A DNA stretch of 64,000 nt from Bacteroides salyersiae WAL 10018 = DSM 18765 = JCM 12988 (lineage in GTDB: Bacteria > Bacteroidota > Bacteroidia > Bacteroidales > Bacteroidaceae). A program made the translations under genes and the position numbers. Position 1 is the first letter of the stretch. Each line of letters begins with the position of its first letter. The DNA lies in assembly GCF_000381365.1 (NCBI RefSeq), contig NZ_KB905467.1, forward strand, positions 365,604-429,603. The letters run 5' to 3'. The notes beneath the pieces are model-generated. The model saw only the letters and a program-made list of their open reading frames with translations. It had not been told where the DNA came from and did no database searches. This document shows positions 18,447 through 23,627 of this stretch, in pieces.

Positions 18447-19769
18447 TTATATCTTTTTATTCTGCCATTTTGCTTTTTTGAGATAAATATAGCTTGTTAT
18501 GAACAATAATGTATAATACACTATCTCAATGGTAAAACACCATTCGATAGGCGCTTTCAGCCACATTCCGATAAAGATTATATACGAACCGTAGATGAGG
18601 ATCGTAATGGTTTCCAGCAGGAGGGCGGCTTGTGTATTGCCTGTTCCCGATATTCCGTTGAATACGACATTGGCAACCGAAGCGATCAGCATGGCACAGC
18701 AGATGACGTACACTGAAGGGACAGACTCCGTTATCAGTGCGGCTTCGTTGGTATAGATCGAAAGCATTGCCTGCGGAAATATTGCAGTGACAATAACCAG
18801 TGCCAGCATAATGAAGAATGAAAAACGGGCTATCTTATTGATGAGCGTCATGACGTGTTGTATGCCGCCTGCACCGATTGCATTACTTACCAGACTGTTG
18901 GTTGTCGTGGCCAGTGCATTGACCGGAATCAGCATCACGATATAGATGCTACGTACGATATTGGCAATGGCAAGTTCGCGTTGTCCTAACCTCTCTACGG
19001 CAATGAAGAATACGAACCACGTAGCCATTGACAGGAAGTACTGTAACATGGTGAAGCATGAGATGCTGAGTATGCGCATCAGCAACTGGGGATCGAAGGA
19101 ACGGAACCGGTTCAAGCCGTATTTTTTCAGATCGACAGTAATGTACGTGTAAATAAGGAAAAACAGGATGGAACTGGCTTCGGCTATCACAGAAGCGATA
19201 GCGGCTCCCTTGATGCCCATTTCCGGAAATCCGAAGTGTCCGAATATCATGGCGTAATCCAGGATCACGTTGACAATGGCCATGACAATGGCATTAATCG
19301 TTAGCACTTTGGTACGGGTAATGCCGATGTATAATGCGCGGAACATTACATTGACAAATGAGAAGAAGAAACCGTAGGTGCGCCAGTCCAGAAACTCCAT
19401 CGTGGCATCGAATATCGATTCGGAGGATACCAGCATGCGCATGATGTTGCTTCCGAAAGCTTTGGTGAAGCCAAACAGTAACAGGGCCATGACCAACAGG
19501 AACATAACGCCCTGCATCATTACGGGACCCACGTCCGCATAGCGTCCTTCTCCATTGCGGCGGGCAATGACGATTTGTGAACCGGTACTAAATCCGAAAG
19601 CGATCGTGAAGACGCATATATAGAAAAGCCCGCCCATCGCAGAGCCTCCGAGGGCTACTTCTCCGACTCTTCCGAGAAAGGCCGTATCAGTGACATTAAT
19701 GACATTTTGTGCTAATAAACTGAGGAGTATCGGGTAGCTGACACTCCAAATCTGTTTGTTGGTATACAT
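18447..19769 (-). CDS. MATE-family multidrug/toxin exporter
   Basis: 440 residues from MYTNKQIWSVSYPILLSLLA, with about twelve membrane helices in two similar halves. The start of each half carries family signatures (ALGGSAMGGLFY, then NIVRSIYIVMLIPVNALATT). MATE proteins export cationic compounds using a sodium or proton gradient. The frame is open 33 codons further upstream, but that stretch overlaps the kinase gene and the -7 box at 19796, so ATG 19769 is preferred. Substrate not predictable. Confidence 0.92.
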   Translation of the reverse strand: MYTNKQIWSVSYPILLSLLAQNVINVTDTAFLGRVGEVALGGSAMGGLFYICVFTIAFGFSTGSQIVIARRNGEGRYADVGPVMMQGVMFLLVMALLLFGFTKAFGSNIMRMLVSSESIFDATMEFLDWRTYGFFFSFVNVMFRALYIGITRTKVLTINAIVMAIVNVILDYAMIFGHFGFPEMGIKGAAIASVIAEASSILFFLIYTYITVDLKKYGLNRFRSFDPQLLMRILSISCFTMLQYFLSMATWFVFFIAVERLGQRELAIANIVRSIYIVMLIPVNALATTTNSLVSNAIGAGGIQHVMTLINKIARFSFFIMLALVIVTAIFPQAMLSIYTNEAALITESVPSVYVICCAMLIASVANVVFNGISGTGNTQAALLLETITILIYGSYIIFIGMWLKAPIEWCFTIEIVYYTLLFITSYIYLKKAKWQNKKI

Positions 19770-19809: not shown

Positions 19810-21774
19810 TTATTCGGATATGATATCGAGAGGATAAGTAAAATTAATGACAGGTCGTTCCTGTTCATCGGCCGTTATGTTGTAGCTGCCTCCGAAATGC
19901 TGCAACAAAAGGCGATTGATATCATGACGTATGCTTACTTCCTGGGAATTGAATTCCGGATCGGCCAGTGGGCTGTTGCTGATGCGGAAACATATCTGTT
20001 TGCCGGAGTCGTCACGAGTCAGAGTGAAAGTGATTTCTCTGTGTGCCGTGTTTTTCTGCGGATAAGTCAGAGTGCTGACCAATGCTTGAATGAGCCTTCC
20101 GGTATCGGTTGTGATGGGTTGCGTCTCGATATGGGTATCGAAATATATTTCTATGGTTTCTTCATTGCGCATGCGGGCCATATAGATAGCGTCATTACAG
20201 AGTGCCACAGCATCATATTCCTGTATTTGGAACTTCATCATGTTGGCTTCCAGACGCGACAAGTCCAGTACGTCATTAACCAGTTGCATCAATTCTTCGG
20301 TATTTTTCTGGATGATGGCAGAGAATTCTTTTCTTGTGTCCTCGTCCATATTCGGTTCTGATGCTATCAGTTGGGAAAATCCTACGACTCCGTTCAGTGG
20401 AATGCGAATATTATAGCTCATGTTGGCAAGGAAATGATTCTTAGTCTCATTGGCTTTTTCGGCTATCCGGGTAGCTTTGCGGGTTTCACTTTCTGCTATT
20501 TTCAGGGCTTTACGTACTCGGAAGATGCGTAACATGAAAAATACCAATACGATTAATGTCGTGCCGATAACGATAAGTACAATAAGTTGTATTTTGTTTT
20601 TCAATTGTTCCTCTTCGAGGGCTATTTTATTGATGTGATAGTTGCTTTGTATCAGTTTCATTTGTTTGTCGGAAAGCTCGGTGACCAGTGAGTCTTTCAT
20701 TTGCAGTACCTTTTCATAGATGGGCAGCGCTTCCTGGCTGCGGCCGGCTTCCACGAGTATGTCCGCTTTGGCAGACAATTGGTTGACGTAGTCGGAACTG
20801 AACGCTTCCTGTAATAAGACGATTGTGGAATCCAACTGGCTAAGGGCCTTGTCATACTCTTTACAGCGCCGGTAGTACAAAGCGTATGCATCGTAATAGA
20901 GCACGCGATACATAAAATAGGTATGTGGTGTGAGATACTTGGCTCCTTTTTGTAAATGTTCAAAAGCAGGGTGAGGCTGATTCATCTCTAAATAATAATA
21001 AGCATAATAGAGTTCATTGAAGATCAACGGATCCTGAAAAGCCTCTTCCATGGTGGGATTCTTTCTTATGTAGTCTTCAAGGATACTTTTCTGTTCATCG
21101 AGATATTTCTTCAGGTTTTCAAAGTCATCTTTGGCTTTACTGAGTGAAATGAGTTGGCAAAGTACGGAGTTGTGTACAATTACGTTATCCAGTTTGGGGA
21201 GTAGCATATGGGCCTCTTCCAATGCTTTTTTCCCTTCTTCCCAACGTCCGGTACCCATGTAAGCATTTGCCAGACATTGTTTGGCACCGATTAATCCGCG
21301 CACATTGTTGGCTTCCTGTGCCTTTTGGTACATCTCGAGTGATTTATTGATGGCAAATTCGATCTGCTCTCTATAAGAATAAAGATCTATCTGGCATCTT
21401 TGTGCGTCGAAATAATAATCCCACAGATTGCCTTCGCGGACAAAAGGCTCCATCTTTTCGATCTTTTGTATTACGCTGTCCAGTTCGTTCTGGTTGTAGT
21501 AATAGATAATCTGGAAATAAAGGGCGGTTCCGGCATATTTGGGATTATTCTGTGCGATAGCTTCTTGCAACAGCATATCCGAGTAGCGGATACAGTTGGG
21601 ATTGGTTTGCTCCATCCGCGTGATATCCTGTATCATTTGCAGGCGTGCAGAGTCGTGCGGCATGCTTGTCAGCAGTCTTTCCAGACTGTCTCTTTTTGCC
21701 GAGGATGGAGTAGCCGTAGGCATACCTGTTAAAAAATGGCAACTCAGAATAAGGGTAAATATCAATTGTTTCAT
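19810..21774 (-). CDS. TPR sensor histidine-kinase homologue lacking the phospho-His (pseudokinase)
   Basis: 654 residues: signal peptide, a periplasmic TPR-like helical region (about 30-385), one membrane helix (about 395-415) and a coiled coil, then a HisKA-like segment. Where active kinases read SHEIRTPLN, this protein reads SYNIRIPLN: Tyr454 replaces the phospho-accepting His and Asn the following Glu. The ATP-binding part is also degraded: the N-box asparagine is missing (GRLIQALVSTLTYP), and DTGxG is replaced by ISNSPLAD. It still has a full-length frame, so it is not an ordinary pseudogene. It overlaps the active kinase upstream by four bases (ATGA). A regulatory or dimer-partner role for its neighbour is inference. 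Confidence 0.85.
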   Translation of the reverse strand: MKQLIFTLILSCHFLTGMPTATPSSAKRDSLERLLTSMPHDSARLQMIQDITRMEQTNPNCIRYSDMLLQEAIAQNNPKYAGTALYFQIIYYYNQNELDSVIQKIEKMEPFVREGNLWDYYFDAQRCQIDLYSYREQIEFAINKSLEMYQKAQEANNVRGLIGAKQCLANAYMGTGRWEEGKKALEEAHMLLPKLDNVIVHNSVLCQLISLSKAKDDFENLKKYLDEQKSILEDYIRKNPTMEEAFQDPLIFNELYYAYYYLEMNQPHPAFEHLQKGAKYLTPHTYFMYRVLYYDAYALYYRRCKEYDKALSQLDSTIVLLQEAFSSDYVNQLSAKADILVEAGRSQEALPIYEKVLQMKDSLVTELSDKQMKLIQSNYHINKIALEEEQLKNKIQLIVLIVIGTTLIVLVFFMLRIFRVRKALKIAESETRKATRIAEKANETKNHFLANMSYNIRIPLNGVVGFSQLIASEPNMDEDTRKEFSAIIQKNTEELMQLVNDVLDLSRLEANMMKFQIQEYDAVALCNDAIYMARMRNEETIEIYFDTHIETQPITTDTGRLIQALVSTLTYPQKNTAHREITFTLTRDDSGKQICFRISNSPLADPEFNSQEVSIRHDINRLLLQHFGGSYNITADEQERPVINFTYPLDIISE

Positions 21775-23627
21775 TGGGTATTCTCCTTTCTGTTGACTAC
21801 CGGGATTATGGGGTGGGTGAACATAAAACGGGCCCCCTCGGTATATTCATGATCTATCCATATCCGGCCACCGACTTGTTCGATGATAAGTTGGCAGATG
21901 GAAAGTCCCAATCCTGTGCCCTGTGCACCTTCATTTAATTTTTCAAAGCGGTTGAATATCTGCTTTTGTTTTTCCAACGGGATACCGCAGCCGGTGTCGG
22001 TGACGGAAAAGAGCGCGACCGTATCCGATTCTTTCTCGACCTCGAGAGTGATAACACCCTCTGTCGTGAATTTGGTGGCGTTGATAAGTAAATTGATGAG
22101 CAGTTGCTGCAAACGGGAGTCGTCTGTTACAAGAGGAAGTGACTCTAATGTGGTAACAAAACGTACTTCGGCTTGTGTCTGTTTCACTTTCTCTACAGTT
22201 TCTACCACGTTACGGCAGATGACCACTGCATCGCTTTCTTTCAAATTGAATGTCAGTTTTCCTACATCTACACTTGAAAGGTCGATAACGTCATTGATAA
22301 GTTTAAGGAGAAGTTCTGAGTTTTGTTGTATAATCTCGTTGCATTGCTGGCGTGTGTCATTGTCGATGGAGTCATCCGTGAGAATGGCGGAGAAACCCGA
22401 AAGAGCGTTCAGGGGAGTGCGTATTTCATGGCTCATGTTCGATAGAAAGAGACTTTTGGTTCTTGTTGAGTTCTCTGCATATTGCTGGGCTTTTTCCAAT
22501 TTCTCTTTTGACAGGAATAGTCGTTTGTTCCCTTTTTTAATAAGGAAAATGAGGAGGAGGATGAGGCCTAACATGGAGAGTACTGCAAGAATTCCCCATA
22601 AGATTGTTCTGTTACGTTCTTGCTGGTTTTTAATTTCCAGTTGGTCTATTTGGTAAATGGTACGTAATTCATTAATTTGGCGGACATAGCTGAGGTTGTC
22701 CAATGAGTCTTGTAATGCACTTGTCCTCTGATAGATAAAACAAGCTTTGTCGGTTTGCCCTTGTTTCGCCAGAAGCCGTGCGCATTGGATATTCAGTTGT
22801 ACGTGTTGATACGGGGCATAAGACGGACGGAGTTCGCTGATGATTTTACCGTATTGCTCCAATGCCCGGTCATATTGTTCTGTCAGTTCGTAATAGCTGG
22901 CATGCATGTAATCCAGCATAAAGTTCATATGAAAGAAATTGTTTTCTGCATTTGCACGTGTTGCTTCGGTGAGGTATGCTTGGGCTTTGTCGGGCTGATG
23001 GGTCATTATCAGATAATATGCACGGCATATGGAGGTATAAAACAGATTGGATGATGTTGGAAACTTGTCGAATAGGCTTTCGAGTTGCTTTAGATATGCA
23101 TGGGCTTCGTCGATTTTTTCTATTTTAAGCAGACTTAAGATAAGATTAGGCAGGATATGTATTTTTATCAAATCCTCATCATCTGATTTATCCAATATCC
23201 GTATGGCTTCTTCGTATGAGTCGATGGCTTGTTGCTGTATGTTGGATGCCAGGTAAACATCGCCTATGGCGCGGAGTGAAAGAGCTATCCCTTTGTCATA
23301 TTCCATCTCTTTGGCCTTTTGATACATGATGTGGGCTTTATCTACAGCTACGGTAATATCGCCACGATTCGCATATGCTCTTGCTACCAGTTGCTTCAGA
23401 TAAAAAAGAAGATCATATCGTTTGTCGGCTTCCAATTTCGGTTCGAGTTCTTTTTCCAATAAAATAATACTGTCGGAAGACATTTCCCTATCATAAGGCA
23501 GGTTATGATCGATAAGAATCTGTAACTTTTCCAGGTATTTGGAAGTGTTATCAACAGGATATGCCGGCAGGGAACATAGAAGTCCGGCCAGCATTCCTAA
23601 TATATAGTAATAGATATGACTTCTCAC
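21771..23627 (-). CDS. TPR-containing sensor histidine kinase, active-site complete
   Basis: 618 residues: signal peptide, TPR-like periplasmic domain (about 28-330), membrane helix (about 340-362), coiled coil, then HisKA with SNMSHEIRTPLNALSGF (His400). The HATPase domain carries RLQQLLINLLINATKFT (N-box), VTDTGCGIPL (G1), IFNRFEKLNEG (F-box) and GTGLGLSIC (G2), so it should autophosphorylate. There is no receiver domain and no response-regulator gene next to it, so its partner must be elsewhere. The stop overlaps the start of the pseudokinase homologue, giving one translational unit. Confidence 0.92.
   Translation of the reverse strand: MRSHIYYYILGMLAGLLCSLPAYPVDNTSKYLEKLQILIDHNLPYDREMSSDSIILLEKELEPKLEADKRYDLLFYLKQLVARAYANRGDITVAVDKAHIMYQKAKEMEYDKGIALSLRAIGDVYLASNIQQQAIDSYEEAIRILDKSDDEDLIKIHILPNLILSLLKIEKIDEAHAYLKQLESLFDKFPTSSNLFYTSICRAYYLIMTHQPDKAQAYLTEATRANAENNFFHMNFMLDYMHASYYELTEQYDRALEQYGKIISELRPSYAPYQHVQLNIQCARLLAKQGQTDKACFIYQRTSALQDSLDNLSYVRQINELRTIYQIDQLEIKNQQERNRTILWGILAVLSMLGLILLLIFLIKKGNKRLFLSKEKLEKAQQYAENSTRTKSLFLSNMSHEIRTPLNALSGFSAILTDDSIDNDTRQQCNEIIQQNSELLLKLINDVIDLSSVDVGKLTFNLKESDAVVICRNVVETVEKVKQTQAEVRFVTTLESLPLVTDDSRLQQLLINLLINATKFTTEGVITLEVEKESDTVALFSVTDTGCGIPLEKQKQIFNRFEKLNEGAQGTGLGLSICQLIIEQVGGRIWIDHEYTEGARFMFTHPIIPVVNRKENTQ

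Follow-up and report, generated by a model that had tools for sequence, protein, structure and literature searches.

The usual textbook histidine kinase is a homodimer, and most of the pseudo-histidine kinases known to us are single cases. The class itself is already recognized: according to extracts of one survey, the phospho-His is missing in 0.9% of HisKA domains (722/76,471; PMC12632262). Where an inactive kinase accompanies an active one, RcsC and RcsD are reported, in passages of PMC13317618, as homodimers predicted to meet in a heterotetramer, and for ChrS and HrrS, extracts of PMC9491836 describe heterodimerisation of the native kinases and not of the truncated form. Here we describe two adjacent genes, A and B, in a 64-kb stretch of the Bacteroides salyersiae contig NZ_KB905467.1 (positions 365,604–429,603; this whole stretch is called the window below, and the positions of features are given in its coordinates). 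The host genome has a size of 5.31 Mb. An earlier note on this DNA had described A as an active sensor kinase and B as a preserved pseudokinase coupled to it, the two perhaps forming a hetero-dimer. We consider it likely that A is the catalytic and B the regulatory subunit of one obligate hetero-oligomeric membrane sensor kinase. The partnership of A and B is well supported; the contact between them, its stoichiometry and the sign of the regulation we infer.

Organization of Genes A and B

Both genes are on the minus strand, and the coordinates, the overlap at 21771–21774, the 654 codons of B and its Tyr454, as put forward in the earlier note, were all confirmed from the sequence. Gene A (21771..23627; open reading frame (ORF) list, Pfam, and AF2 model) encodes an active TPR sensor histidine kinase of 618 amino acids, with GTG as the listed start codon. 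The order is signal peptide, TPR array, single membrane helix, DHp, and CA. The HisKA/DHp domain (residues 391–454, 22266..22457; Pfam PF00512, 60.8 bits) contains the phospho-His400 codon at 22428–22430, and the HATPase_c domain (residues 502–606, 21810..22124; Pfam PF02518, 88.2 bits) shows the N, G1, and G2 boxes in the motif table. With SHEIRTPLN, NATKF, DTGCG, and GTGLG, A has the phospho-His and all the ATP-binding boxes of a canonical HisKA/HATPase_c sensor kinase, as had been claimed.

Gene B (19810..21774; ORF list and AF2 model) encodes a TPR pseudo-histidine kinase of 654 amino acids and starts inside the stop of A by a four-base ATGA overlap (21771..21774). The two proteins are homologous, with 26% identity over 571 aligned columns (E = 9e-54). 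The TPR-like region of B (approximately residues 30–360, 20695..21687) was recognized by TPR_14 above the cut-off, by TPR_12 just below it, and by helical repeats in the model; it is placed in the periplasm because B has a signal peptide and a single membrane helix. The degenerate HisKA/DHp domain (residues 445–510, 20245..20442; PF00512, 49.4 bits for a cut-off of 26.9) carries Tyr454 at the phospho-His position (codon 20413..20415). The residue after the phospho-site is changed from E to N, and the residue four after it from T to I. Profile alignment found HisKA in both A and B and HATPase_c in A only, the latter being absent from the 15 Pfam families listed for B at E ≤ 1. The pseudo-CA (approximately residues 515–650, 19825..20232), delimited by the secondary structure of the model and by motif tables, retained the order of the fold with a shortened lid stretch. 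Its three boxes were gone: the N-box was replaced by LTYPQK, G1 by SNSPLAD, and nothing recognizable stood for G2, in agreement with the loss of the N-box Asn and of DTGxG stated in the earlier note. B consequently has the HisKA domain and lacks the phospho-His and the ATP-binding boxes of a canonical sensor kinase.

The AF2 model of B (mean predicted local distance difference test score (pLDDT) of 87.3) shows a CA-like order of strands and helices at residues 517–648 and predicts one helix, residues 346–472, that leaves the TPR array, crosses the membrane, and enters the DHp. In the model of A (mean pLDDT of 80.7, parts of 560–570 being below 50), an unbroken helix at residues 314–416 likewise appears to connect the end of the TPR array to the DHp. 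The lid stretch would measure 11 residues in B, from strand 593–599 to helix 611–626, compared to 28 residues in A. The best solved structures matching B in Foldseek were HK853 and RetS, the latter alone and with the GacS DHp (7n0e). DivL was at rank 37, and the TM-scores by target length were mostly 0.5–0.7 among the matches listed. When the sequence profile of B was compared to solved structures, GacS and RetS entries filled the first four places.

Pairing of A and B Across Genomes

A-type and B-type genes were counted with separate profiles in 60 genomes belonging to the genus, with cut-offs of at least 450 bits for A (next hit 398) and at least 362 bits for B (lower hits being A genes or other kinases), so that very diverged copies could fall below. 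Twenty of the 60 genomes contained 46 A-type and 46 B-type genes, which formed 45 adjacent pairs; the remaining A and B came from one and the same genome, each at the end of a contig. The conserved pairing in other Bacteroides, for which the earlier note proposed a check, is thereby borne out. The genome of the window has itself a second A-B pair (C1:348386-352209).

The first loci were among the matches listed when 149 genomes of the genus were searched with B. Eighty stretches chosen by their match to B and the window itself gave 81 frames with B as the best match, 77 of which had an A-type kinase directly upstream. Among the four others, L155 and L160 were at contig ends, A was split by an in-frame stop in L172, and in L142, the B. 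finegoldii DSM 17565 locus also recovered as L226 (L226:5397-7872), the kinase core of A was lost and that of B kept. In this last locus, the TPR and membrane part of A was joined to the TPR and pseudokinase of B, and the N-terminal part of A was in another frame. One locus (L253) showed the reversed order, B before A.

A total of 120 pairs, many from repeated genomes and with named loci overlapping the first set, was then filtered for an aligned H-box in A and for B cores at most 85% identical, which left 72 pairs. Removal of L328 and L329 (locus ends), L233 (B in two frames), and L169 (A frameshifted) left 68. The His, the Glu, both Asn, the G1 Asp, and the G2 glycines were present in A in 68/68 pairs, and the Thr four residues after the His in 67. 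B was devoid of the G1 Asp and of the G2 glycine pair in 68/68, and of the N-box Asn in 65, an Asn being aligned there in three. The uniformly active state of A is partly due to the selection of rows: broken A genes were left out (L169/L239 from B. faecis, L112, L172, L142/L226, and L245). In L112, the frame of A breaks before G2, and the near-twin L111 is intact. In B. faecis MAJ27 (L239:4132-5901, the same locus as L169), a frameshift was observed in the ATP domain of A, the remainder of the domain being in another frame. A Pfam scan of 29 B sequences detected HisKA in 29/29 and HATPase_c in none, among the best 25 of 30 families. By sequence and conservation, B would belong to the broad class of pseudo-histidine kinases.

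The four-base overlap was found in 57 of the 68 pairs (56 with ATG, one with GTG). In one draft genome of 81% completeness (G130, locus L157), A and B were fused twice, in neighbouring genes of 1159 and 1104 codons. Each fusion contains the A core, a polar linker, a membrane segment, a TPR array, and the B core; by eye, the boxes of A are intact in both, and B has a His and no ATP boxes. An assembly error is unlikely because two separate long frames are concerned. The lengths of the TPR regions varied among the 68 pairs: 22 had a short A and a long B, five a long A and a short B, one had both short, and 40 had both long. Complementary TPR loss was not used as a proof of a shared sensor, as double loss was not clearly below chance and the short A of L110 and L145 were frame breaks.

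No receiver domain (PF00072, E ≤ 0.001) was present within the window. The nearest ones on the contig lie outside it on both sides, one ending at 323,995 and the other starting at 476,783 (contig coordinates), so that the absence of a nearby response regulator, as claimed, holds. With a profile built from 18 receivers, 10 of 1952 ORFs (genes and chance frames) over the 81 loci bore a receiver, each 1.7 to 10 kb away from the pair. A response regulator belonging to the A-B operon was rejected on account of this rarity and distance.

Selection, Origin, and Spread

The ratio of nonsynonymous to synonymous substitutions (dN/dS) was calculated in 23 comparisons. Seven, two of which share L135, were usable in that the dS of B ranged from 0.2 to 1; the rest were saturated or too close. 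Values were 0.04–0.12 for B and 0.04–0.11 for A, and B is consequently under purifying selection. The DHp of B had a dN/dS of 0–0.02 in five of the seven comparisons and of 0.09 and 0.14 in the other two, and its pseudo-CA 0.04–0.22 versus 0.02–0.06 for the CA of A. As judged from the sequences, the kinase-like half of B is kept, the DHp most strongly in most comparisons, and the pseudo-CA appears relaxed and far from neutral. Between L185 and L186, the A TPR region had a saturated dS of 1.7, and the A core and all parts of B were near a dS of 0.1, a pattern that looks like the exchange of the sensor part of A alone.

The closest relative, L110 (G092:C81), has broken frames, which the earlier note would have taken as decay in a sister strain. 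Frameshifts affect folD, the MATE gene, A, and B alike in this locus, and since folD and MATE are hit too, the breaks are most likely due to poor assembly, not to decay.

In a tree of the kinase cores (33 A, 33 B, and 31 other kinases, quick method), A and B were each found on one side of a branch, with supports of 100 and 100. The tree was repeated without the CA domain because degenerate ATP domains could draw the B rows together; the supports were then 99/98 for A and 100/99 for B (careful method, long proteins: 21 A, 21 B, and 23 others). The A and B trees of the 68 pairs had 52 of 65 splits in common, compared to a mean of 0.29 and a maximum of 3 in 2000 label permutations, and their patristic path lengths were correlated (r of 0.96; permutation maximum 0.25). 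Most simply, the A-B pair arose once, and inheritance and duplication have since involved both genes together. In B, the ATP site would have been lost once, early, after duplication, the phospho-site changing afterwards in different lineages.

Pairs of active A and dead B were also found in two other genera of the family (three pairs in G791; G808, G835, G849, and G888) and in other families of the Bacteroidales (L231/L301 and L302; L257/L303, L304, and L306). Among 295 genomes of the order, 22 matched at E ≤ 1e-40, many through ordinary kinases, and at E ≤ 1e-60, with four candidates scored per genome, none of 295 other genomes of the phylum sample did. Among 29 weaker loci (L271–L299), the N, G1, and G2 boxes were readable in 27; L283 was not alignable, and L284 (Bacteroidaceae) had a B-like frame at a contig end. 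As a control, tandem TPR kinases of another clade of the same genus had both partners intact in 3/3 loci (L351, L352, and L353, three genomes), and a single frame of 1321 codons (L350:748-4713, G019:C122) carried two intact TPR kinase cores of a non-A/B clade with all boxes. The tandem layout alone does not cause decay, since these tandem pairs and this fusion are intact; they may show what the A-B ancestor looked like.

The Phospho-Site of B

Among the 68 pairs, the residue at the phospho-site of B was Tyr in 33, His in 23, Asn in three, Asp in three, Lys in two, Ser in two, Gln in one, and Thr in one, corresponding to 13 changes on the B tree. Tyr occupied all 29 rows of the clade of the window, that of Phocaeicola faecalis (L246) included, and His was found in 17/18 and 6/6 rows of two other clades; the rest varied, and a few of them also had Tyr. 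Like the window, 31 of the 81 loci contained homologues of rho and ffh, most of them with folD and 16 with a MATE gene, the comparison being of the presence of homologues, not of gene order. At these loci, Tyr was found in the window, L110–L121, L131, L142, L143, and L148, His (SHAIRVPLN) in L122–L130, L132 (with one change), L140, L141, and L154, and Gln in L162.

His-bearing orthologues, in which the earlier note would have seen a sign of recent loss, thus exist in the same rho-ffh neighbourhood, and they are equally ATP-dead. Recent loss of the His was ruled out, given the Tyr in 29/29 rows of the clade and an ATP-box loss common to all compared B rows. The Tyr change is old and found throughout the clade, separate from the loss of the ATP site and not needed for it. 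It is not what makes B a pseudokinase, because the His-bearing B lack the ATP boxes as well. The replacement of the phospho-site by Tyr, Asn, Asp, Lys, Ser, Thr, or Gln according to the lineage suggests that B need not, in general, be phosphorylated.

Neighbouring Genes

On the strand of B, a MATE-like transporter frame (18447-19769) would start some 40 bases beyond B if its second Met is used, and is followed by ffh and folD; B, MATE, ffh, and folD may share a transcript. B is directly followed by a third histidine kinase, intact and with CHEIRTPLN, in Bacteroides xylanisolvens XB1A and in a related genome (L228:7968-10028, also L144 and L146).

Discussion

We propose that the TPR arrays of A and B are both in the periplasm, where they would detect a ligand or a protein partner, and that each continues as one helix across the membrane into its DHp. 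The DHp bundles of A and B would pack together, either as an A:B heterodimer or as two homodimers assembled into A2B2. Since B cannot phosphorylate, it would act allosterically, by activation or by restraint, and set whether A autophosphorylates His400, and A would pass the phosphate to a response regulator encoded elsewhere. If autophosphorylation occurs in cis, an A:B dimer could work with one active half; if it occurs in trans, A would target the site of B and would therefore depend on the A2B2 assembly. Cis phosphorylation or an A2B2 assembly would be favoured, because the B site is often not His. The basis for a hetero-oligomer is genetic, namely the fusions, the overlap, and the co-inheritance. 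A preserved pseudokinase tied to an active kinase, as first suggested, agrees with the conserved pairing, the mirrored trees, the purifying selection, and the natural fusions. The partnership part of the original hetero-dimer proposal stood; the dimer itself is one of two possible assemblies, the nearest precedent, RcsC/RcsD, being predicted to meet as heterotetramers.

That precedent suggests another arrangement, in which A and B each homodimerise and meet as A2B2 through an interface that is not a mixed DHp bundle, B coupling to a third protein and switching A between kinase and phosphatase. This is possible, and we regard it as clearly less probable than a joint sensor kinase with B as its regulatory subunit. 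RcsD resembles RcsC in layout and its kinase domain is inactive, and both are described in the text of PMC13317618 as homodimers with a predicted heterotetramer; a B:B bundle would also require the strongly constrained DHp of B. However, the families listed for B include no HPt family, which removes the phosphorelay step of the RcsD type, and the 1:1 stoichiometry of the fusions is compatible with both assemblies. It is also conceivable, and rather unlikely, that the DHp of B binds the response regulator of A, or a different response regulator, as a phosphorylation sensor or decoy, with feedback on A and no stable A:B core complex. DivL has a Tyr at the same site, no kinase activity, and senses DivK~P, as reported in passages of PMC4211667, and in five of the seven usable comparisons no other part of B is as constrained as its DHp. 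On the other hand, the fusion, the gene overlap, and the 1:1 pairing point to the kinase and not to a far-encoded regulator, and DivL kept the ATP boxes that B has lost. That B is a decaying duplicate hitch-hiking on A seems very improbable. The lost ATP boxes, the 13 changes of the phospho-site, and one pair dead on both sides would fit decay, but the B frames are open across many species, dN/dS is far below 1, the origin is single and ancient, and duplication is paired, and the L110 frameshifts, shared with folD and MATE, look like an assembly error.

Several observations weigh against a hetero-oligomer of A and B. The dN/dS of the pseudo-CA of B is 1.5–7 times that of the CA of A. B. finegoldii DSM 17565 retains the B core, the A kinase core being gone, and G835 has, beside an active/dead pair (L338), a double-dead pair (L356, G835:C12:33500-42500, minus strand), in which the A-type gene (609 codons) has neither the His nor the N, G1, and G2 boxes, and the B-type gene (515 codons) stops after the DHp, the CA domain being lost. 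One may guess from this double-dead pair that the unit can also persist with no kinase at all, and that it might then act on the active/dead pair. Mirrored trees are also expected from the plain co-inheritance of linked genes. The covariation between the DHp of A and B had no power, with an effective depth of 28 and a within-protein control that failed to recover a hairpin pattern; the case for A-B contact is genetic, the AF2 models being monomers. Finally, the prediction for RcsC and RcsD, according to extracts of PMC13317618, is that they do not meet as a 1:1 heterodimer.

More broadly, A-B might represent a lineage of histidine kinases that are obligately heteromeric, have a single origin, and are so far seen in the Bacteroidales only. 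Among the counted genomes, no catalytic subunit occurs without its ATP-dead partner, and the pair duplicates and sometimes fuses as one unit. The dead subunit would be the signal-integrating half, and Tyr454 would be functional in the clade of the window, as a state-fixing contact or as a trans acceptor of the phosphate of A, and not a scar. We see about as much for this proposal as against it. A whole clade is available in which dozens of variants occur naturally, some having TPR arrays and others none, together with six phospho-site residues beyond His and Tyr and with ready-made fusions, which makes the effect of a dead kinase subunit on a live one testable in gut commensals. A caution is that Bacteroides "sensor kinases" recognized from a HisKA domain may not be capable of the usual mode of ATP binding.

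By analogy, the A-B pair may work like RcsC/RcsD or DivL/CckA and is a member of neither. RetS carries C-terminal receiver domains; no Response_reg family was listed for B, which mostly lacks the phospho-His as well. In Pseudomonas, RetS inhibits the autophosphorylation of GacS, as stated in parts of PMC5992135, and this control of one kinase by another is what the A-B pair would share; RetS, GacS, and the complex of their DHp domains (7n0e) are among the solved sequences and folds closest to B. RcsC/RcsD of Enterobacteria is similarly made of an active kinase and an inactive homologue of similar layout in one membrane system (extracts of PMC13317618). However, RcsD hands on phosphate through ABL and HPt domains and RcsC is a hybrid kinase with a receiver, neither of which was found in A or B among the families listed; the C-terminal HPt of RcsD has no counterpart in B at E ≤ 1, and the B model ends with the pseudo-CA. 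In DivL/CckA of Alphaproteobacteria, a kinase-dead partner with Tyr at the phospho-His position controls the active kinase (passages of PMC4211667). In contrast to DivL, a PAS-domain protein in which the N, G1, F, and G2 boxes are retained, B combines the Tyr with the absence of the boxes and with a TPR array. In an evolved Corynebacterium strain, the CA-dead pseudokinase ChrS promotes signalling via the paralogous active kinase HrrS, the phospho-His being dispensable, but this is a laboratory-evolved mutant and not a natural lineage, as far as described in extracts of PMC9491836. No description of the A-B pair was present among the matches listed in searches of open-licence papers. What would be new here is an obligate, operon-paired, single-origin partnership in which the ATP site was lost first and the phospho-site is variable.

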